Assembly (NCBI GenBank): GCA_022705125.1
Contig: JAKJFB010000140.1
Location: forward strand, 1-6,990
Length of the DNA stretch: 6,990 nt
Source: Pseudomonadota bacterium
Lineage (GTDB): Bacteria > Pseudomonadota > Gammaproteobacteria > Pseudomonadales > UBA5518
Direction: 5' to 3'
Part shown: positions 1 through 6,990 of the stretch, in pieces
Numbering within the stretch: position 1 is the first letter of the stretch
Layout: the number at the start of each line of letters is the position of its first letter
Position numbers and translations under genes: made by a program
The notes under the pieces: model-generated
What the model was told of the DNA's origin: nothing
What the model saw: only the letters and a program-made list of their open reading frames with translations
Database searches by the model: none

Positions 1-194
1 GTCAGCAGCCCGGGGCACAGGGCCTGCGCGGTGCTGGCCGAGATGCCGGGGCTCACGCCATGCTCGCCGGCGAGCGCGTCGTGGCACAGCACGCGGTGCT
101 TTTCGGTGACGATGACGGGGCGTTGCGCGTGCATGTCGGCGCGGGTGAAGACCTCCAGCGGCAGCAGCGGGAAGCGCAGGCAGAGCCAGAGCAT
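1..194 (-). CDS. imuB: ImuB, inactive Y-family polymerase-like protein (N-terminal part)
   Basis: The gene starts at the ATG at 194-192 and runs off the left edge, so only about 64 residues are visible. The protein begins MLWLCLRFPLLPLEVF and continues with a segment reading RPVIVTEKHRVLC and GVSPGISASTAQALCPGLL, which is typical of the N-terminus of ImuB. Active Y-family polymerases carry a catalytic Asp in the first strand (as in IDMDSFYA). Here that strand reads LCLRFPLL with no acidic residue, as expected of ImuB, a non-catalytic member that links the error-prone DnaE2 polymerase to the beta clamp in the ImuA-ImuB-DnaE2 mutasome. The start lies 12 bases after the imuA stop, so the two are co-transcribed under the LexA site upstream of imuA. 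No clear Shine-Dalgarno sequence is seen in the GC-only gap, so translation may be coupled to imuA. dnaE2 would be expected beyond the left edge (inference). Confidence 0.85.
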   Translation of the reverse strand, partial: MLWLCLRFPLLPLEVFTRADMHAQRPVIVTEKHRVLCHDALAGEHGVSPGISASTAQALCPGLL

Positions 195-206
195 GGCGGC
201 GCGGGC

Positions 207-1028
207 TCAGTGCAGCGCCGTCCCGGCGGGCGTGGTCGTGGGTCCGGATTTATCCGGACATGGCATTCGTTCGGCCGTGGGTCCGGATTTATCCGGACAT
301 GGCATCTGTCCGGATAAAGCCGGACCCACGGGGGCCTGATCCACGGTGGCGGGCAGCAGGGCGGGGTCGATGCGCGGCTGCAGCAGCGCATTGGCGCGGG
401 CGAGCGTGAGCTGCTGGCCCGCCTGGCCGCCGCGCTGCTTGACGATCTCGAGCGCGAGGTGCTCCCGCGTGCCCCGCAGCACGATCCGCAGCGCGGCAGG
501 CGAGAGGCTGTGCGCCGCCTGTGGCGGGCGGAACAGGAATGCCAGGCTGGCGCTGCCCTGCGCGGCGAGCTGCAGCCGGCGCAGGGCGCGGTAATCGCCG
601 AGGCGCGATTCGGGCAGCCAGGCCAGCAGGCAGGCCGCGGCACCGGAACGCAGGATCTGTTCCGCGCACCACAGGGTGTCGACATCCCGCTCCGCCCGCA
701 CGACCAGCAGCCGTTCCAGCGCCACGTCCTGTGCCAGCAGGGCGGGTGCATAAGGCAGATAGGGTGGGCAGACGAAGAACAGCCGGCGCGAGCCGCGGCT
801 GCAATACGCCAATGCCGGCGCCAGCAACTGCATCTCGCCGATGCCGCAGTTGCCGCTGAGCACCTCGGTCAGTGCCGCGCGCGGCCAGCCGCCCCGGTGC
901 AGGACCCGGTCGAGGGCGGCATGTCCGCTGGGCAGGGTATCCCCGGTCGCGGTTGCCGCGCGGGGGCGGGAAGCCTGCCAGACATCGGGGCGGGCGAGCA
1001 GTGTTTGCAGCAACCGGTTCATGCTCAT
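207..1028 (-). CDS. imuA: ImuA, SOS mutagenesis protein with REP-derived C-terminal tail
   Basis: This 273-residue protein belongs to the ImuA/SulA-like RecA-fold family that acts with ImuB and DnaE2 in damage-induced translesion synthesis. Family features seen are LPSGHAALDRVLHRGGWPRAALTEVL (about residues 32-57, given in short: LPSGHAALD, GGWPR, LTEVL), then SGNCGIGE (58-65) at the P-loop position. This P-loop is degenerate and lacks the GKT of ATP-binding RecA. A segment RRLFFVCPPYLPYAPAL follows, with later strands typical of the fold. The start is the ATG at 1028; a second in-frame ATG is at 1022. No Shine-Dalgarno precedes either, and the LexA box ends 2 bases upstream, so the mRNA may have little or no leader. 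Residues about 233-264 are encoded by REP-like repeats and contain MPCPDKSGPT twice with a 13-residue period. This tail is unlikely to be part of the ancestral protein. Confidence 0.85.
   Translation of the reverse strand: MSMNRLLQTLLARPDVWQASRPRAATATGDTLPSGHAALDRVLHRGGWPRAALTEVLSGNCGIGEMQLLAPALAYCSRGSRRLFFVCPPYLPYAPALLAQDVALERLLVVRAERDVDTLWCAEQILRSGAAACLLAWLPESRLGDYRALRRLQLAAQGSASLAFLFRPPQAAHSLSPAALRIVLRGTREHLALEIVKQRGGQAGQQLTLARANALLQPRIDPALLPATVDQAPVGPALSGQMPCPDKSGPTAERMPCPDKSGPTTTPAGTALH
237..330. repeat. Cluster of three REP-like palindromic repeats
   Basis: Two identical 30-base direct copies lie at 237-266 and 276-305 (period 39). A third, near-identical copy is inverted at 304-330. 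Each unit reads GTGG followed by an 8-base perfect palindrome arm pair, GTCCGGAT-TT-ATCCGGAC. A GT-rich tetranucleotide next to a hairpin is the usual shape of REP sequences mobilised by RAYT (REP-associated tyrosine) transposases. Copy two (277-298) and the inverted copy (308-329) can pair over 21 of 22 positions with a 9-base loop, like a BIME. The cluster lies inside the imuA reading frame just before imuB. No RAYT gene is in this window. Confidence 0.8.
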
Positions 1029-1030
1029 GA

Positions 1031-1046
1031 CTGTTCAAATATACAG
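1031..1046 (-). promoter_or_regulatory. LexA box (SOS operator) of imuA-imuB
   Basis: The site reads CTGTTCAAATATACAG: CTG, ten AT-rich bases, CAG. It matches 13 of 16 positions of the E. coli-type consensus CTGTATATATATACAG. It ends 2 bases before the imuA ATG. On the minus strand it contains TATATT, a possible -10 element; an alternative -35/-10 pair is TTTACA, 17 bases, CAGAAT just upstream, about one mismatch and two mismatches from consensus. In either case LexA bound here would cover the start of transcription. SOS control of imuAB is well known in proteobacteria. Confidence 0.85.
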
Positions 1047-1066
1047 TATTCTGGTGATTCCGTTGC

Positions 1067-1079
1067 CTGTTGTAAACAG
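1067..1079. promoter_or_regulatory. Short palindrome upstream of the LexA box
   Basis: CTGTT-GTA-AACAG is a perfect 5-base inverted repeat 20 bases upstream of the LexA box. It resembles LexA half-sites, but the spacing is CTG-N7-CAG instead of N10, so it is not a standard LexA site. It overlaps the possible TTTACA -35 element of imuA on the minus strand. It could be an operator for another regulator or chance. Confidence 0.25.
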
Positions 1080-1101
1080 CGGCTACTCTGCTTTCGATGC
1101 G

Positions 1102-1110
1102 TTATGCACA
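1102..1110 (+). promoter_or_regulatory. DnaA box, first of the upstream cluster
   Basis: TTATGCACA is a perfect match to the DnaA box consensus TTATNCACA. It stands before the AT-rich stretch of this gap, just as an identical TTATGCACA (2020-2028) stands before the AT-rich stretch of the next gap. Confidence 0.6.
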
Positions 1111-1157
1111 TTTGTGGCGCACTGCCGCATCGCGGAACGCGTATCACGACATCCATA

Positions 1158-1235
1158 CCGAATTCGAAAAATGGATTTTTAGTATTCAAAAACAATACGA
1201 TGCGTTATTTTTCTAATATTGAATGTAGGTTTATG
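1158..1235. other. AT-rich stretch between DnaA boxes (upstream gap)
   Basis: Bases 1161-1220 are 78% A+T by direct count (47 of 60), within a strongly GC-rich window. The stretch lies between the DnaA box at 1102 and the tandem pair at 1274-1294. It could be a DNA-unwinding element or a promoter region. ATTCAA (1184-1189) and TTGAAT (1219-1224) form a loose inverted repeat. The whole gap 1029-1383 shows no gene. Confidence 0.5.
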
Positions 1236-1273
1236 GGTGGGTGAGCGTGGCCGAGGCGTGCAACCGCACACTT

Positions 1274-1294
1274 TTATCCCCGGTTTTATCCACA
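1274..1294 (+). promoter_or_regulatory. Tandem DnaA boxes (upstream cluster)
   Basis: TTATCCACA at 1286-1294 is the high-affinity DnaA box. A weaker copy, TTATCCCCG, lies at 1274-1282 in the same orientation, exactly 12 bases upstream start to start. The downstream gap has the same tandem arrangement with the same 12-base period (2210 and 2222). Confidence 0.65.
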
Positions 1295-1320
1295 GCATTT
1301 CCAGCGCCCCGGCCGTGCTG

Positions 1321-1329
1321 TGCTAGCAT
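1321..1329 (+). promoter_or_regulatory. Possible extended -10 element for the dUTPase gene
   Basis: TGCTAGCAT fits an extended -10 (TGN plus a hexamer matching TATAAT at 4 of 6). It would start transcription about 50 bases before the ATG at 1384. No good -35 is seen at 16-18 bases, so the call is weak. The strong DnaA box ends 27 bases upstream of this element. Confidence 0.25.
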
Positions 1330-1383
1330 GGCCACGCCTTCGTCTTCCCCCATTCCATAGAGTAGGTAGAGGGATCACCGCCG

Positions 1384-2012
1384 ATGCTGCAGCAACTGAC
1401 GACCATGCTGGAAATGCAGGACCGGATGAACCGCAAGGTCCATCCCGACTGGATCAACCAGCAATTCGCCTGGTACCGGGCGCTGTGGATCGAATGCGGG
1501 GAGCTGATCGAGCACTACGGCTACAAGTGGTGGAAGCATCAGCAGCCGGCGTGGGAGCACGTGAAGCTCGAGATCGTCGATATCTGGCACTTCGGCATGA
1601 GCATGCGCTTCGATGGCACCAGCACGCCGGCGCAGATCGCCGCCGGCATGCTCGAGGAGTTGCGGCTCCGCCGCAGACCATGGAGTTGCGCGAGGCCGTC
1701 GAGGCCCTGGCGGGCCGCGCGCTGGTGGGGCGCGAATTCCCGGTCGGCCATTTCTGGTCCCTGCTGCAGGCGGCCGGCATGACGCCCGATGAGCTGTTCA
1801 CCGCCTACGTGGGCAAGAACGTGCTGAATTTCTTCCGCCAGGACCACGGCTACAAGGACGGCAGCTACCGCAAGACCTGGCAGGGACGCGAGGACAACGA
1901 GCACCTGGCGGAACTGCTGGGCCAGCTGGACAGCCGTAGTCCCCGCTATGCGGACGAGCTCTACGGCGCCCTGGCGGCGCGCTACGCGCAGGCTGCAGCC
2001 GCGAACGCCTGA
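1384..2012 (+). pseudogene. Dimeric dUTPase (MazG superfamily), split by a -1 frameshift
   Basis: The protein is a dimeric, all-alpha dUTP diphosphatase that would hydrolyse dUTP to dUMP and keep uracil out of DNA. The first frame (ATG 1384 to about 1677) gives MLEMQDRMNRKVHPDW, then ECGELIEHYGYKWWK and LEIVDIWHF, which is the complete metal-binding ExxE...ExxD motif. The second frame (from about 1680 to the TGA at 2012) gives LREAVEALAGRAL, GHFWSLLQAAGM and the conserved YVGKNVLNFFRQDHGY, KTWQGREDNEHL of this family. The frames differ by -1: one base is missing around 1660-1679. There is no XXXYYYZ slippery heptamer there. An ATG at 1680 opens the second part but has no nearby Shine-Dalgarno. 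With the frame restored the protein would be about 208 residues, normal for the family. It may be a real lesion, a sequence error, or less likely recoding. It is flanked on both sides by DnaA-box clusters. Confidence 0.8.
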
Positions 2013-2019
2013 GCTGCTG

Positions 2020-2028
2020 TTATGCACA
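2020..2028 (+). promoter_or_regulatory. DnaA box, first of the downstream cluster
   Basis: TTATGCACA, a perfect TTATNCACA match, begins 8 bases after the dUTPase stop. The same 9-mer is at 1102-1110 in the upstream gap, at the matching position relative to its AT-rich stretch and tandem boxes. Confidence 0.6.
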
Positions 2029-2040
2029 CTGCGTAAATGC

Positions 2041-2077
2041 TGTCAAGAAAGTGACATTGACCGCAACAAATTTGTCA
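2041..2077. promoter_or_regulatory. Three TGTCA/TGACA half-sites and a palindrome
   Basis: TGTCA (2041-2045), six bases, TGACA (2052-2056) form an inverted repeat. A further TGTCA follows at 2073-2077, overlapping the perfect palindrome ACAAATTTGT (2066-2075). The spacing resembles operators of dimeric helix-turn-helix regulators, but no specific regulator can be named. It lies between a DnaA box and the AT-rich stretch. Confidence 0.3.
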
Positions 2078-2080
2078 TTT

Positions 2081-2160
2081 CGGTAGAAAACAACATTAAG
2101 AAAGTAATGTATCTGATTGTTTAATATATAAAAAATGATATTTGATCATAAAATGAACAA
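2081..2160. other. AT-rich stretch, possible unwinding element (downstream gap)
   Basis: Bases 2101-2160 are 83% A+T by count (50 of 60), the most AT-rich stretch in the window. It contains TTAATATATAAAAAATGATA and a single GATC in TGATCA (2144-2149). It sits between the DnaA box at 2020 and the tandem boxes at 2210-2230, as a DNA-unwinding element would in an origin. It may equally hold the promoter of the following gene, but no convincing -35/-10 pair stands out. Confidence 0.5.
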
Positions 2161-2209
2161 TCTGAGAGGGCCTCAGCCGGCATGCGGGGTAGGGGCGCAT
2201 ACTAAGAAC

Positions 2210-2244
2210 TTATCCGCAAACTTATCCACAGAAATTGTGGACAA
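2210..2244 (+). promoter_or_regulatory. DnaA box trio (downstream cluster)
   Basis: TTATCCGCA (2210-2218, one mismatch) and TTATCCACA (2222-2230, perfect) are in tandem with a 12-base period. TGTGGACAA (2236-2244) is an inverted box, TTGTCCACA on the other strand, with one mismatch. Three boxes within 35 bases is the density of an origin or a DnaA-titrating locus. The last box covers the TTG at 2235-2237, which argues against that codon as the start of the next gene or implies DnaA control of it. Confidence 0.7.
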
Positions 2245-2261
2245 CTGGGAGCCCGAAACCG

Positions 2262-3161
2262 GTGCCGGGGACTGAGCAATACCTGTCGGGATCGGCGCTG
2301 GCGCGGCGTCTCAACATGCCCAGCCGCGAGTTGTTCACGCTGCTCGCCGAGCAGGGCTGGATCGTGCGCCAGGGTGAACAGTGGCGCCTGACGCGCAAGG
2401 GCGAGTTCGAGGGCGGCAGGTACCTGAACAGCGAACGCTTCGGCACGTATATCGGCTGGCCGGAGCAGGTGCTGGAACATCGCCTGTTCAGCGTGAGTCC
2501 CGAGCAGACGCTGCTGAATGCGGCCGCGCTGGGCCTGCGGGTCGGCCTGTCGGCGCGCCAGACCAACCTGCTGCTGCTCGAACTGGGCTGGATCCGCAAG
2601 GGCGTGAAGGGCTGGGAGCTCACTGCCCGTGGCAAGGCGCTCGGCGGGGTGCAGGAGGAATACCCGGACACCGGCGTGCCTTACGTGCGCTGGCCGGCCA
2701 CGCTGCCCGGCAACCCCGTGCTGAACGAGAACCTGCAGGTGATCCATGCCTACGAACACATCGGGGAGGCCGCGGAGCGTGACCTGTTCGGTGATGCCGA
2801 GCGCGAGATCCGTGTCGATGGCGGGGACGGGCTGCGCGCGCTCGACGGGCACGTGCTGCACAGCAAGGCGGAGCTGATGATCTGCCACTGGCTGTACATG
2901 TCGGAGATCGCGCACGCCTATCACCGGCGCCTCCCGGTGGAGGGTGACTACCGCTGCGATTTCTACCTGCCGTCACTGCAGCTCTACATCGAGTACTGGG
3001 GCGACGAGGCGGCGCCGGGGCAACTGACGGCGAAGCTGAACAAGAAGGCCGTCTACGAGCGCCACGGCCTCAAGCTGCTGGAGATCGGACCCGACGACCT
3101 CGCCCGGCTCGACGAGGTCCTGCCGCGCGCGCTGTTGAAGCACGGCCTCGCGGTCTATTGA
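2262..3161 (+). CDS. Protein with duplicated winged-helix-like module and PD-(D/E)XK nuclease-like domain
   Basis: I do not recognise a named family. With the GTG start at 2262 the protein has 299 residues. Residues about 7-73 and 83-149 are two copies of one module. Both share the pattern A-L, a hydrophobic helix, LL-E-GWI, W-LT-(R/K)G, GG and Y-x2-WP, which suggests a helix-turn-helix plus wing (seen: EQGWIVRQGEQWRLTRKG and ELGWIRKGVKGWELTARG). The C-terminus (about 201-295) has a restriction-endonuclease-like pattern: SKAELMICHWL (Glu204), YRCDFYLP (Asp233), LYIEYWG (Glu244), then Lys258/261/262 and a KLLEI strand. The Lys of a classical ExK is absent, so a later Lys may replace it (inference). 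GGGAG lies 10 bases before this GTG. A TTG at 2235 would add 9 residues but lacks a ribosome site and overlaps a DnaA box. The gene ends 6 bases before the convergent phhB stop. Confidence 0.75.
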   Translation: MPGTEQYLSGSALARRLNMPSRELFTLLAEQGWIVRQGEQWRLTRKGEFEGGRYLNSERFGTYIGWPEQVLEHRLFSVSPEQTLLNAAALGLRVGLSARQTNLLLLELGWIRKGVKGWELTARGKALGGVQEEYPDTGVPYVRWPATLPGNPVLNENLQVIHAYEHIGEAAERDLFGDAEREIRVDGGDGLRALDGHVLHSKAELMICHWLYMSEIAHAYHRRLPVEGDYRCDFYLPSLQLYIEYWGDEAAPGQLTAKLNKKAVYERHGLKLLEIGPDDLARLDEVLPRALLKHGLAVY

Positions 3162-3167
3162 GACGGC

Positions 3168-3476
3168 TCAGGCGGCCGTGCTCCCCAGCGCCCGCGCGAA
3201 GCCGTCCATCGCCTCCGCCAGCGTGAAGTCCAGGGCGGTGATGCCGTGGGCGTCATGCGTGGTCAGCGCGATCTCGACGCGGTTGTAGACGTTGAACCAT
3301 TCCGGGTGATGATCCAGCTGCTCGGCGCGCAGCGCGCTGCGCGTCATGAACGCGAAGGCGGCGCTGAAGTCCGCGAAGCGGTACGCGCACCGCAGCTTGC
3401 CATCGCGCAGGCTCCAGCCGGGCAGCGCGGCGAGGCGCGCAGTGATCGTGGCATCGTCCAGTTTTTGCGCTCGCAT
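3168..3476 (-). CDS. phhB: Pterin-4a-carbinolamine dehydratase
   Basis: A 102-residue protein of the PCD/DCoH family, which dehydrates 4a-hydroxytetrahydrobiopterin to quinonoid dihydropterin during aromatic amino acid hydroxylation. The signature is clear: [20 protein letters not shown] (about 52-71) followed by [16 protein letters not shown]. The catalytic histidines correspond to His56, His57 and His74. The ATG at 3476 is preceded by GGGGAG about 8 bases upstream. The length is normal for the family. It is the last gene of the tus-trmA operon, 21 bases after trmA. No phenylalanine hydroxylase is visible, so the substrate source is unknown; stand-alone family members also occur in bacteria without one. 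No terminator with a T-tract is seen between it and the convergent gene. Confidence 0.92.
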
Positions 3477-3497
3477 GGGCTCACTCCCCGGGCGGTG

Positions 3498-4601
3498 TCA
3501 GGTGGCATTGCGACGCTGCAGGGTCACGCCGCATTCCAGGTGATGGGTATAGGGAAACTGGTCGAACAGCGCGAAGCGTTCGATGTCGTGCGTGGCCGCG
3601 AGCGCCACCAGGTTCTCGCGCAGCGTCTGCGGGTTGCACGAGATGTAGACGATGCGCCCGAAGCCGGCGACCTGTGCCAGCGTGCGCGCATCGAGCCCCG
3701 CGCGCGGCGGATCGACCAGCACGGCGCCGGCTTCGAAACGGTCGAGGTCGAAATCGCGCAGCCGGCGGAAGGGCCGTTCGCGCGCCAGTGCGGCCGAGGC
3801 CTCCGCGCTGGAGAGCCGCGCGATGAAGGTGTTGTCGATGCCGTTGGCCGCGAGGTTGTACTGCGCGGCGGCGATCGCGACCTTGTTGATCTCGGTGGCC
3901 AGCACGGTGTCGAAACGATCGGCCAGCGCGACCGTGAAGTTGCCGATGCCGCAGTAGAGCTCCAGCAAGTCGCCGCCGATGCCCGCCGCGCGGGCCCGCG
4001 CCCAGCCGAGCATCTTGCGGTTAACGCCCCCGTTGGGCTGCGTGAAGCAGCCCTCGGGCTGGCGCAGCACCAGTTCGCGCCCGTCGACCTGCAGGCGTTC
4101 CGTCACGAACGATTCCCCGATCACGATGCGTTGCCCGCGCGAGCGGCCGATGAGCTGCGCATCCAGCACGAGGCTCAATTCCCGGGCGGCGTCTTCCCAT
4201 GCGGCGTCGAGCGGGCGGTGGTAGACCAGCACCACCAGCGCCTCGTTGGCGAGTGTGCTCAGGAACTCGACCTGGAACAGCTTGCGCTTGAGTGCCGGCG
4301 AGCGCAGCACCGCCGCGCGCAGGCGCTGCATCAGCGCGTTGATGCGTTGCGAGGCGGGCGGGAACTCGTCGATGCGCACCGGCTCGCGCGGATTCGCGGG
4401 ATCGAACATCGCGTAGAAGGCGTCGTCGCCCTCGTGCCAGAAGCGGAACTCGGCGCGCTGGCGGTAGTGCCGCGGCGGCGAGGCGTACACCTGCGGCACG
4501 GGCGCGCCGAGCTCATGCATGGCGTCGCGCACCACGCGCACCTTCTGCTCCAGCAGCGCGGCGCAGGCCGGCGCGGAATAGTCCTGCTCGCTGTATCTCA
4601 C
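3498..4601 (-). CDS. trmA: tRNA (uracil-54-C5)-methyltransferase TrmA
   Basis: SAM-dependent enzyme that makes 5-methyluridine (T) at position 54 in the T-loop of tRNAs. The 367 residues match the usual 366. Seen in order: an N-terminal TrmA segment (YRQRAEFRFWHEGDDAFYAMF, residues 46 onward, in short RAEFRFWH), QPEGCFTQPN (about 181-190), the SAM site LELYCGIGNFT (213-223), VDPPRAG (296-302), the nucleophile Cys322 in ISCNP and the general base Glu356 in HHLECGV. No Fe-S cysteine cluster of the RlmC/RlmD type is present, which supports TrmA. The start is the GTG at 4601, in a GTGA overlap with the ybiB stop and with AGGAG 7 bases upstream. An in-frame ATG at 4619 would overlap ybiB further and lies before that ribosome site, so it is less likely. 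Confidence 0.95.
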   Translation of the reverse strand: MRYSEQDYSAPACAALLEQKVRVVRDAMHELGAPVPQVYASPPRHYRQRAEFRFWHEGDDAFYAMFDPANPREPVRIDEFPPASQRINALMQRLRAAVLRSPALKRKLFQVEFLSTLANEALVVLVYHRPLDAAWEDAARELSLVLDAQLIGRSRGQRIVIGESFVTERLQVDGRELVLRQPEGCFTQPNGGVNRKMLGWARARAAGIGGDLLELYCGIGNFTVALADRFDTVLATEINKVAIAAAQYNLAANGIDNTFIARLSSAEASAALARERPFRRLRDFDLDRFEAGAVLVDPPRAGLDARTLAQVAGFGRIVYISCNPQTLRENLVALAATHDIERFALFDQFPYTHHLECGVTLQRRNAT

Positions 4602-5635
4602 GGGGTGTCTCCTGGCCATGGGCCGCGCCGGCGCCAGTAATCGCGCGCGAGCGCCAGCGCGGCGTCGGCGTCGTTGGCGCCACCGAGCGCCAGCAGCGCG
4701 GCCGCTGCCGTGCCGATCACCGCGGCTTCCCCGTAGGCGTCCTCGGTGCGGCCGTTCCACAGCGCGGGCAGCAGCGCCACGTCCGGCACGATGGCGGCGT
4801 CGCCGCGTTCGGCCAGCTGGCGCGTGAAACCGAGCTCGCGTTGCGCATCGCCCTCGAGCAGGATGCAGCGGCTGTCGGCATTGGGGCGCAATTCGCATTC
4901 GCCGCCCTCTCCACGGAAGATCAGCGCGCGCGGCTGCCCGAGCTGTCGCGCCGCGCCCGCGTGCAGCACGGCATAGGCCGGGTGCTGCAGGCTGTGCATC
5001 GTGGCGGGCGCGGCCAGCGGGTTCATGTGGCGCACGAAGGTGTTCACCGGCGAGCGCAGGCCGAACAGGTGGCGCAGGTTCAGCAGCGCCTGCAGGCCCG
5101 GGCTGAACAGCGCGAGCGGCGCGTACGCGAAACGGCGCGTATCCAGCGCCTCGCGCACCTCCTGCCAGTCGCGCGCGGGCGCGATGCCGAGCGCCGGCAG
5201 CGCCTGGGCTGCGAAAAGGCGGTTGCGCGCGTGCGGCTCGCAGCCGTGCATCAGCACGCGGTGCCCGTGCGCGGCCAGCAGCAGCGCCGACAGCAGGTAC
5301 CACGGCGGCTGCTGGCGTTTGCCCGCGTAGGTCGGCCAGTCCAGGTCGACGAGTATCGGGGCCTCCGGCAGTTGTGCGCGCTCGCGCGCGGCCTGCACGA
5401 AACCGGCGATCTCCTCGGCGGTTTCCTCCTTCACGCGCAGCAGCATCAGGAAGGCGCCGGTCTGCAGCGGGTCGGCCTCGCCGTCCAGGATCATCCCGAG
5501 CGCTTTGCGCGCCTCCTCGCGTTCGAGCGAGCGCGCGCCACGGCGTCCGCGCCCGAGCGTGCGCACGAAGGGCGCGAAGGGATGTTCCTCGGGGCACGAT
5601 GATGGCGGCGCGGACAGGTGCATGGGCTTGCTCAC
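4598..5635 (-). CDS. ybiB: YbiB/TrpD2-like protein (anthranilate phosphoribosyltransferase fold)
   Basis: A 345-residue member of the TrpD2/YbiB branch of the glycosyltransferase family 3 fold. E. coli YbiB binds nucleic acids and has no anthranilate phosphoribosyltransferase activity. Seen: the helical N-terminal domain (HPFAPFVRTLGRG, then EARKALGMILDGEADPLQTGAFLMLLRVKEETAEEIAGF in outline, about 18-79), then DLDWPTYAGKRQQPPW (about 97-112), GHRVLMHG (124-131), and HMNPLAAP and GEGGECELRP further on. The GTGGD phosphoribosyl-pyrophosphate motif of true TrpD is replaced by YAGKRQQ, so a role in tryptophan synthesis is unlikely. The start is GTG 5635 in a GTGA overlap with the tusE stop; an ATG at 5623 is an alternative. 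In E. coli ybiB is under LexA control, but no LexA box is visible here. Its place between tusE and trmA suggests a tRNA- or RNA-related role (inference). Confidence 0.85.
   Translation of the reverse strand: MSKPMHLSAPPSSCPEEHPFAPFVRTLGRGRRGARSLEREEARKALGMILDGEADPLQTGAFLMLLRVKEETAEEIAGFVQAARERAQLPEAPILVDLDWPTYAGKRQQPPWYLLSALLLAAHGHRVLMHGCEPHARNRLFAAQALPALGIAPARDWQEVREALDTRRFAYAPLALFSPGLQALLNLRHLFGLRSPVNTFVRHMNPLAAPATMHSLQHPAYAVLHAGAARQLGQPRALIFRGEGGECELRPNADSRCILLEGDAQRELGFTRQLAERGDAAIVPDVALLPALWNGRTEDAYGEAAVIGTAAAALLALGGANDADAALALARDYWRRRGPWPGDTP
4608..4613 (-). promoter_or_regulatory. Ribosome binding site deciding the trmA GTG start
   Basis: AGGAGA on the minus strand, inside the end of ybiB. 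The AGGAG core is 7 bases before the GTG at 4601-4599. It lies downstream of the alternative ATG at 4619, so it can only serve the GTG. Confidence 0.65.
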
Positions 5636-5958
5636 AGACAGTGCTCGGGGCGGGGCAGGCCCGCGATCTTCGCCGCCACGCGCGCGGGGCTGCCGGGGAA
5701 CAGTCCGAGCAGGTAGACGCTGCGGCCCTTGTCGGGACCGAGCGTGCGTCGCGTCAGGCTGACCAATGCGCGCATGGCGGGCGCGTGCTCGTGCTCGCGA
5801 TAGTACGCTTGCAGCATGTGCAGGATCTCGCGGTGCGCGGGCGTCAGCGTGAGGCCTTCCTCGCGCGCGAGCGCGGTGGCCACCTGCTCGTTCCAGTCGG
5901 CCCGATCCAGCAGGAAACCGTCCGCATCGCGCGGCGGCAGCGCTGCGTTTGCTTTCAT
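5632..5958 (-). CDS. tusE: TusE, sulfur-relay carrier of the DsrC family
   Basis: A 108-residue DsrC/TusE-family protein. In the Tus pathway TusE takes a persulfide from TusBCD and hands it to MnmA for 2-thiolation of wobble uridine 34 in tRNA. Seen: ADGFLLDRADWNEQVATALA near the N-terminus, LTPAHREILHMLQAYYREH, and the C-terminal arm LFPGSPARVAAKIAGLPRP ending HCL. The penultimate Cys107 is the sulfur-carrying residue. True DsrC proteins have a second Cys 11 residues earlier; here that place is Ala96, so this is the TusE type and not the two-cysteine dissimilatory DsrC. The ATG at 5958 follows the tusB stop by a single base. Confidence 0.93.
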   Translation of the reverse strand: MKANAALPPRDADGFLLDRADWNEQVATALAREEGLTLTPAHREILHMLQAYYREHEHAPAMRALVSLTRRTLGPDKGRSVYLLGLFPGSPARVAAKIAGLPRPEHCL

Positions 5959-5959
5959 C

Positions 5960-6259
5960 TCAGAACCAGGACACGGTGCGCGGGTGCGCGACCGCGAGAT
6001 CGACGAAGCCACCGTAGTCGATCGTGATGACGCAGGCCGGTAGCCGTGCGTCGATGCCGCGCGCGGCACAGTCTTCCGCGAGCGCGAAGATGGCTACGCC
6101 GGCCGCGCGCAGTGCGTGCAGCACGTCGGCGGCCTCACCGAGCGCGGCATAGACGCCGTCGCCGCTCAGCAGCAGGGCATCGTCGGCGGCGATCACGCGG
6201 GCGCATTCCTCGAGACAGCTGCCCGCGAACGGCGAGGCGGAGAGTATGTGCAGGGTCAT
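5960..6259 (-). CDS. tusB: TusB/DsrH-type sulfur-relay subunit
   Basis: A 99-residue protein of the DsrH/TusB family and the smallest subunit of the (TusBCD)2 hexamer. Seen: MTLHILSASPF, ALLLSGDGVYAAL (the conserved LL-x3-DGVYA pattern), VAIFALAEDCAARGI, and VITIDYGGFVDLAVAHPRTVSWF at the end, which parallels the IDYTDFV and HP-x-W end of E. coli TusB. Cysteines at 15 and 19 are near the position of the conserved Cys of DsrH in sulfur oxidisers, so a sulfur-binding role cannot be excluded. The start at ATG 6259 is 7 bases after the tusC stop. An open frame continues upstream inside tusC, but the family N-terminus begins at this ATG. Confidence 0.9.
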   Translation of the reverse strand: MTLHILSASPFAGSCLEECARVIAADDALLLSGDGVYAALGEAADVLHALRAAGVAIFALAEDCAARGIDARLPACVITIDYGGFVDLAVAHPRTVSWF

Positions 6260-6266
6260 CGGCGGT

Positions 6267-6647
6267 TCATACCGTGAGCACGCGCTCGTGCGCGCCGAAC
6301 AGTTCCCGGAGCTCCACCGGCCCGGCCAGGCGCACCGGCAGCGCGAGGTCCCGCGCGTCCAGCCCGCGCGCCGCGAGTGCTGCCGCCTCGGCATGGACTT
6401 CCTCCACGCCGTAGTCCGCCAGTGTGCCGAGCAGCTTTTCCAGGCTGCGCGACAATTCCGCGGCAGGACGTTGCCCGGGAGCGAGTGCCAGCACGCCGTC
6501 ACCGAGGAACAGCAGCGTGACCGGCTGGTCGAAGGCCGCGAAAGCCATCGCGACGTCGATGGCATCGCGCGCGCGTGAGCGACCGTACGGGGCGTTGCGG
6601 CACACCACCAGCACGCTGCGCCGCGCGGCGGTTTGCGGGGAGCTCAT
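6267..6647 (-). CDS. tusC: TusC/DsrF-type sulfur-relay subunit
   Basis: A 126-residue DsrF/TusC-family protein, the structural middle subunit of the TusBCD complex. Seen: SVLVVCRNAPYGRSRARDAIDVAMAFAAF (about 11-39, key residues APYG...R-A-D), VTLLFLGDGVLALAPGQRP (about 43-61) and LEKLLGTLADYGVEEVHAEAAALAARGLD, which follow E. coli TusC closely (APHG, FFIADGV, PGQKP, LLGLYDIE, AASLRERGLD). The ATG at 6647 overlaps the tusD stop as ATGA, which indicates translational coupling. Confidence 0.93.
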   Translation of the reverse strand: MSSPQTAARRSVLVVCRNAPYGRSRARDAIDVAMAFAAFDQPVTLLFLGDGVLALAPGQRPAAELSRSLEKLLGTLADYGVEEVHAEAAALAARGLDARDLALPVRLAGPVELRELFGAHERVLTV

Positions 6648-6990
6648 CCGCCGAAGTCCAGGATACGGTCGGAGCGGATACTGGCCTCGACCAGCTGGCC
6701 CAGCCCCGAGAGCTCAAAGCCCTGGCGCAAGCTAGCCGCCCCGAGCGCGTGGCGCGCGGCCTCGCGCTCGTCGACAATGCCGCGACGCAGCGCCGAGCTC
6801 ACGCAGCTCACCAGGTCCACACCGTGCTCGGCGGCCAGCTGCTGCCACAGCGCCGGCAGGTCGGCCTCGCCGCTCGCGGCGCAGTTCAGGGCGGTGCTGT
6901 TGTGCACGCCATCAGCGAAGAAGAACACGCGGTACAGCGTGTGACCGCGCGCGAGGAGCGCGCACGCGAAGCGGTAGGCAGCATGGCTGG
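6644..6990 (-). CDS. tusD: TusD/DsrE-type sulfurtransferase (C-terminal part)
   Basis: The gene enters from the right edge. 114 residues are visible, and about 14-16 N-terminal residues are outside if it has the usual 128-130. TusD accepts sulfur from TusA within the TusBCD complex and passes it to TusE. Seen: SHAAYRFACALLARGHTLYRVFFF (in outline), ADGVHNST, LWQQLAAEHGVDLVSCVSSALRRGIVD and LRQGFELSGLGQLVEASIRSDRILDF in pieces matching E. coli TusD (CVAAALRRGVVDE, GFTLSGLGALAEAS). The active-site Cys is visible residue 62, equal to Cys78 of E. coli by the motif CV-x3-ALRRG. It is the first visible gene of the operon, and the promoter must lie beyond the right edge. Confidence 0.92.
   Translation of the reverse strand, partial: SHAAYRFACALLARGHTLYRVFFFADGVHNSTALNCAASGEADLPALWQQLAAEHGVDLVSCVSSALRRGIVDEREAARHALGAASLRQGFELSGLGQLVEASIRSDRILDFGG

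Follow-up and report, generated by a model that had tools for sequence, protein, structure and literature searches.

Four exact DnaA boxes, two to a side, flank a single dUTPase gene in a Pseudomonadota bacterium of the lineage UBA5518 (Pseudomonadales; assembly GCA_022705125.1, contig JAKJFB010000140.1, positions 1 to 6,990), and the question that this locus raises is what such a cluster is for. The whole stretch of 6,990 nucleotides is called the window here, and the intergenic regions before and after the dUTPase gene are called gap 1 and gap 2. A first-pass annotation had proposed a bipartite replication origin, with a datA-like or DnaA-reactivating sequence (DARS)-like locus, or DnaA control of the flanking genes, as alternatives. 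We found that gap 2, between the dUTPase gene and a gene labelled 'glycerol kinase', has the geometry of a DARS. By analogy with Escherichia coli, gap 2 is likely to be a DARS-like element that would promote ADP release from DnaA, a reading to which we give a probability of about two in three. The datA- or DARS-like alternative of the annotation is the one that gains support at gap 2, with the three-box geometry favouring DARS.

Box clustering and the three-box core of gap 2

As first reported, the four exact boxes (TTATNCACA; 1102, 1286, 2020 and 2222) share the forward strand. When sites with at most one mismatch are counted, the window holds seven boxes compared with 1.15 expected, and none of 200 shuffles reached seven. 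The earlier claim that the boxes exceed chance holds, with an expectation of 0.2 per 7 kb that was too generous: the five nearest genomes (3.8–4.4 Mb each) contain 14, 9, 10, 9 and 5 exact boxes, a total of 47 in approximately 20.7 Mb, or approximately 0.016 per 7 kb with the locus itself included. Across these five genomes the reversed box pattern is found 63 times, against 47 for the true box, so the box is not enriched genome-wide, and the unusual feature of the window is the clustering of boxes, not their number in the genome. In the genome with five exact boxes (G005), two are at this locus and two are upstream of dnaA.

Both gaps show the same order that had been noted before, an exact box followed by AT-rich DNA and then by a weak box 12 bases ahead of a second exact box (TTATCCCCG at 1274 ahead of 1286, and TTATCCGCA at 2210 ahead of 2222). 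Over 60 bases, A+T content peaks at 78% (gap 1) and 85% (gap 2; 83% had been claimed), compared with 32% for the whole window. The match between the gaps is nonetheless incomplete, as an inverted one-mismatch box at 2236–2244 on the reverse strand, missed by the earlier annotation, has no counterpart in gap 1.

With this inverted box, gap 2 has a three-box DARS core. Numbering the boxes by analogy with E. coli DARS, box III (TTATCCGCA, 2210–2218, forward) stands in tandem with box II (TTATCCACA, 2222–2230, forward) at an offset of −12, and box I (TTGTCCACA, 2236–2244, reverse) faces box II head to head at an offset of +14. The element as a whole, from an outer DnaA box to box I, spans 2020–2244 on the forward strand. 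Its outer box (TTATGCACA, 2020–2028, forward) is 202 bases from box II, and between the two lie a weak match to the binding consensus of integration host factor (IHF; 2110–2122, forward; 7 of 9 positions, with a second 7/9 match at 2114), which is at chance level in the window, and a Fis-like site (GATCATAAAATGAAC, 2144–2158, forward), 78 bases before box II, which fits all six positions of a loose consensus.

Conservation of the layout in related genomes

Comparing the gaps with those of related genomes, as the first-pass annotation had suggested, showed that the gap-2 pair TTATGCACA/TTATCCACA is kept at four related loci (L002–L005) at exactly 202 bases, and that the gap-1 pair is kept in the nearest relative, G001, but not in G002–G005. 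The downstream ('glycerol kinase') protein is encoded at five related loci. A wider search used the outer pair only, with a spacer of 178–208 bases and the reversed pattern as a control. Of 293 genomes from the order, 66 gave a match, compared with 1 for the reversed pattern; of 143 from the class, 47 did so, compared with none for the reversed pattern. As the share in the class exceeds that in the order, an element peculiar to the order is unlikely. All 66 order matches were fetched, and 12 loci were opened from the class matches. The order yielded 72 elements, of which 71 were scored (the gap-2 copy of G001, in L132, was omitted for its short flank); among the 71 are the gap-1 copies of both the window and G001, two copies close together in L106 and, in L131, three in tandem that lie on one contig of G021, inside 1.6 kb (4184–5727).

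The positions at −12 and +14 played no part in this search. Over the 71 elements, with box II set apart, the mean match to the box consensus peaked at −12 on the forward strand (6.24 of 8, with at least 6 in 57 elements) and showed a second peak at +14 on the reverse strand (6.51 of 8, with at least 6 in 63), compared with a median of approximately 2.1 of 8 over all offsets. Boxes III and I both scored at least 6 of 8 in 50 of the 71 order elements and in all 12 class elements that were opened.

The IHF and Fis matches also keep their places. IHF matches (consensus TAAnnnnTTGATW) of at least 8/9 were present in 56 of the 71 elements, and 50 of these lay 109–113 bases before box II; interiors shuffled with base counts alone preserved gave such a match, at any position, in approximately 10 of 71. 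The Fis consensus was complete in 50 of 71 elements compared with approximately 8 after the same shuffling, and in 35 elements the best Fis match fell 76–78 bases ahead of box II, with 10 more at −134. The IHF and Fis consensus sequences were taken from published work, and Fis was scored on a longer form of its consensus. A Fis homologue was found in all 12 relatives searched and IHF-alpha in 11 of the 12, with none detected in G003 at the threshold used.

When the outer box was not required, head-to-head pairs with at most one mismatch turned up in 247 of the 293 genomes, compared with 2 for the control. Among the 36 such sites in 30 opened loci, 28 had a third box at −12, and one (L167) is also among the 71 elements. 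Several genomes seem to have more than one DARS-like core. In G061, a second head-to-head pair with a third box at −12 (C1, 71659–71681; L168) stands apart from both dnaA and the element.

How might such an element act? DARS cores consist of three boxes, and a head-to-head interaction between the ADP-DnaA molecules bound to boxes I and II leads to release of ADP; DARS2 also requires IHF and Fis (PMC8682772, PMC4245941). If gap 2 works in the same way, DnaA would occupy the three core boxes, the facing of boxes I and II would bring two ADP-DnaA molecules head to head, and their ADP would be lost. The freed DnaA would then reload with ATP and could fire an origin located elsewhere. IHF, approximately 110 bases before box II, and Fis, approximately 78 bases before it, would recruit DnaA from the outer TTATGCACA box by bending the DNA and would in this way time the reaction, as the E. 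coli work would suggest.

Competing readings of the locus

Several observations weigh against a DARS-like element. Box I, box III or both scored below 6 of 8 in 21 of the 71 elements, mostly at 5; four of them, namely both gap-1 copies, L017 and L034, have no recognizable box I (1 or 2 of 8), and the remaining failures scored 5. The genomes compared are related and hence not independent. The IHF match in the window is just 7/9, the commonest score in shuffles. A review counts 52 box pairs of similar arrangement in E. coli, and just two of these bear the name DARS (PMC5835720), so a box pair alone says little. Counted from the core, the parts here come in the order Fis, IHF and outer box, whereas in DARS2 IHF comes before Fis. 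Finally, the order and direction of box, IHF site and box are those of E. coli datA (box at 4745, IHF at 4810 and box at 4907 in L136).

This last likeness underlies the main rival, a datA-like site that, together with IHF, would gather ATP-DnaA on the outer box and core, speed the hydrolysis of its ATP and so turn DnaA off. Its layout of box, IHF and box is present in the relatives, with the IHF match weak in the window. The span in datA is similar, 162 bases compared with 183–202 in the elements. In datA, however, the inverted box stands at +12 and no site within one mismatch of a box is found at −12, and hence datA lacks the DARS core. Because boxes recur at −12 and +14 in the order and class elements, as in DARS, we favour DARS over datA for gap 2 and consider a datA-like site unlikely, although it is the strongest of the rivals.

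Less probable still is a passive cluster that titrates DnaA and leaves its bound nucleotide unaffected. It would account for strong boxes being clustered where they are otherwise rare, but fixed spacings, and IHF and Fis sites that keep their positions, would not be needed for titration alone.

We are even more doubtful that the boxes chiefly serve DnaA control of the downstream promoter. The gap-2 core ends directly ahead of the point where the 'glycerol kinase' gene probably starts, and E. coli DARS1 and DARS2 both lie within promoter regions (PMC5835720), yet the same element is found beside different genes in other genomes. It adjoins trmA in L023–L025 and lies on the opposite side of dUTPase in L026 and L027 (neighbours identified from matches to window proteins only), and elsewhere it is beside a putative glutamine synthetase gene, gpsA, mdh, queD or ribD–nrdR, as judged by eye from translations. 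As these neighbours are quite different, the dUTPase gene enclosed by the two gaps is probably incidental.

The bipartite origin, suggested by DnaA boxes adjoining AT-rich DNA, is hardly credible, and we reject the gap clusters as an origin on the GC skew of three relatives. Twenty 20-kb samples along each of two contigs from complete relatives (G061:C1 and G245:C1) placed the skew minimum not at the element but at dnaA. In G061, skew changes from negative to positive at dnaA (0.56 Mb) and the element is at 2.93 Mb, with the minimum 1.71 Mb away from it; in G245, the same change occurs at dnaA (approximately 0 Mb) and the element is at 3.26 Mb, with the minimum 0.40 Mb away. Both elements sit between samples of the same sign. 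G013:C1, which has the gene neighbourhood of the window, shows positive skew before and after the element, and its one observed change of sign, to negative at 270–320 kb, is terminus-like; skew around dnaA on G013:C7 is mixed and decides nothing.

On six chromosome-size contigs, in two of which dnaA was skew-tested as the origin, the element lies at 0.84, 0.22, 0.67, 0.53, 0.74 and 0.64 of the distance from dnaA to the opposite point. No DnaA-coding stretch was found in the flanks of approximately 1.5 kb at 92 element loci, and the positive control detected dnaA at 23 of 23 dnaA loci. Three of the five nearest genomes (L006, L008 and L010) have an inverted box pair, 119–120 bases apart, upstream of dnaA, which is a candidate for the true oriC or a dnaA promoter.

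Gap 1 and the genes of the window

The gap-1 cluster (1102–1294, forward) consists of TTATGCACA at 1102, the weak box at 1274 and TTATCCACA at 1286. It does not have the three-box core, and we rejected it as a full DARS: the position of box I scored 1 of 8, the best IHF match 6/9 and the best Fis match 5/6. Identity between the window and G001 is 64% in gap 1, where all three boxes are unchanged, and 74% in gap 2, where boxes II and I are unchanged and box III differs; these boxes were picked after the fact, and we claim no probability for their retention. Because the element in L026 and L027 sits on the side of dUTPase that corresponds to gap 1, this cluster is probably a partial second copy of the element, or a remnant of one.

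The gene order in the window is imuA (reverse; NCBIfam NF033429 above its cut-off), gap 1, dUTPase_2 (forward), gap 2 and the 'glycerol kinase' gene (forward), followed by reverse-strand genes for a pterin dehydratase, TrmA, a glycosyltransferase-3 family protein and DsrC-, DsrH- and DsrE/F-like proteins. The glycerol kinase label comes from some sources, and the product has a weak KilAC/winged-helix match. The dUTPase_2 frame (1384–2012) is interrupted near its middle into two pieces, each with a family match; unbroken copies are present in L132 and L002, and the break may be a sequencing error or a genuine lesion. Ahead of imuA, CTGTTCAAATATACAG at 1031–1046 agrees with the LexA box consensus (CTGT-N8-ACAG), fitting an SOS mutagenesis cassette. 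A piece at 3–194 on the reverse strand resembles ImuB by eye, and gave no NCBIfam match. The palindrome GGTCCGGATTTATCCGGAC, similar to repetitive extragenic palindromic sequences, is present twice close to the end of imuA (241 and 280; region 241–318), and the alignment of the window with G001 breaks in this region. We rejected a structured RNA in the window, as an Rfam search gave no family at gathering score.

Comparison with known DARS sites

DARS sites were worked out in E. coli and extended to relatives such as Vibrio and Shewanella (PMC8682772, PMC6090056): DARS2 homologues are described in seven species near E. coli that include these two genera (PMC8682772), V. cholerae has DARS-like sequences at the same localization (PMC6090056), and 59 E. 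coli genomes are covered in PMC4585315. Our searches of the open-licence literature gave no description of such sites for Pseudomonadales, a negative weakened for some of the searches, in which datA also matched 'data'. Tentatively, and at somewhat less than even odds, the element could represent a separate class of DARS across Gammaproteobacteria, comprising an outer TTATGCACA box, IHF and Fis sites and a DARS core, in which the inner spacing is kept as neighbours change and DnaA-recharging sites are ancestral to the class; in the window and its nearest relative, the element would have been copied across dUTPase, leaving the left copy without box I. DnaA-recharging control of this kind may reach further than present descriptions suggest. 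If many other gammaproteobacteria have a compact version of fixed layout, DnaA recharging could be tested well beyond the enteric group, and, as the position of the element varies, so could the importance of distance from the origin.

Both E. coli sites have a three-box core with the offsets and directions of gap 2, DARS1 in the uvrB promoter region (boxes at 2108 (+), 2122 (−) and 2134 (−) in L137) and DARS2 in the mutH promoter region (1136 (+), 1150 (−) and 1162 (−) in L138). DARS1 differs in that the E. coli bioD–uvrB gap has no IHF-like match of at least 8/9. Next to its core, DARS2 carries sites of the IHF and Fis types together with additional DnaA boxes (PMC8682772, PMC4245941), with IHF-like matches in L138, and the elements resemble it in this, with the IHF match weak in the window; the outer box here is TTATGCACA, approximately 190–200 bases off. 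The element in the window is flanked by the dUTPase and 'glycerol kinase' genes and adjoins neither uvrB nor mutH. Because the DARS2 order of core, IHF and Fis and the location near mutH are not those of the window, the evidence is stronger for gap 2 working like a DARS than for its belonging to the DARS2 subtype.
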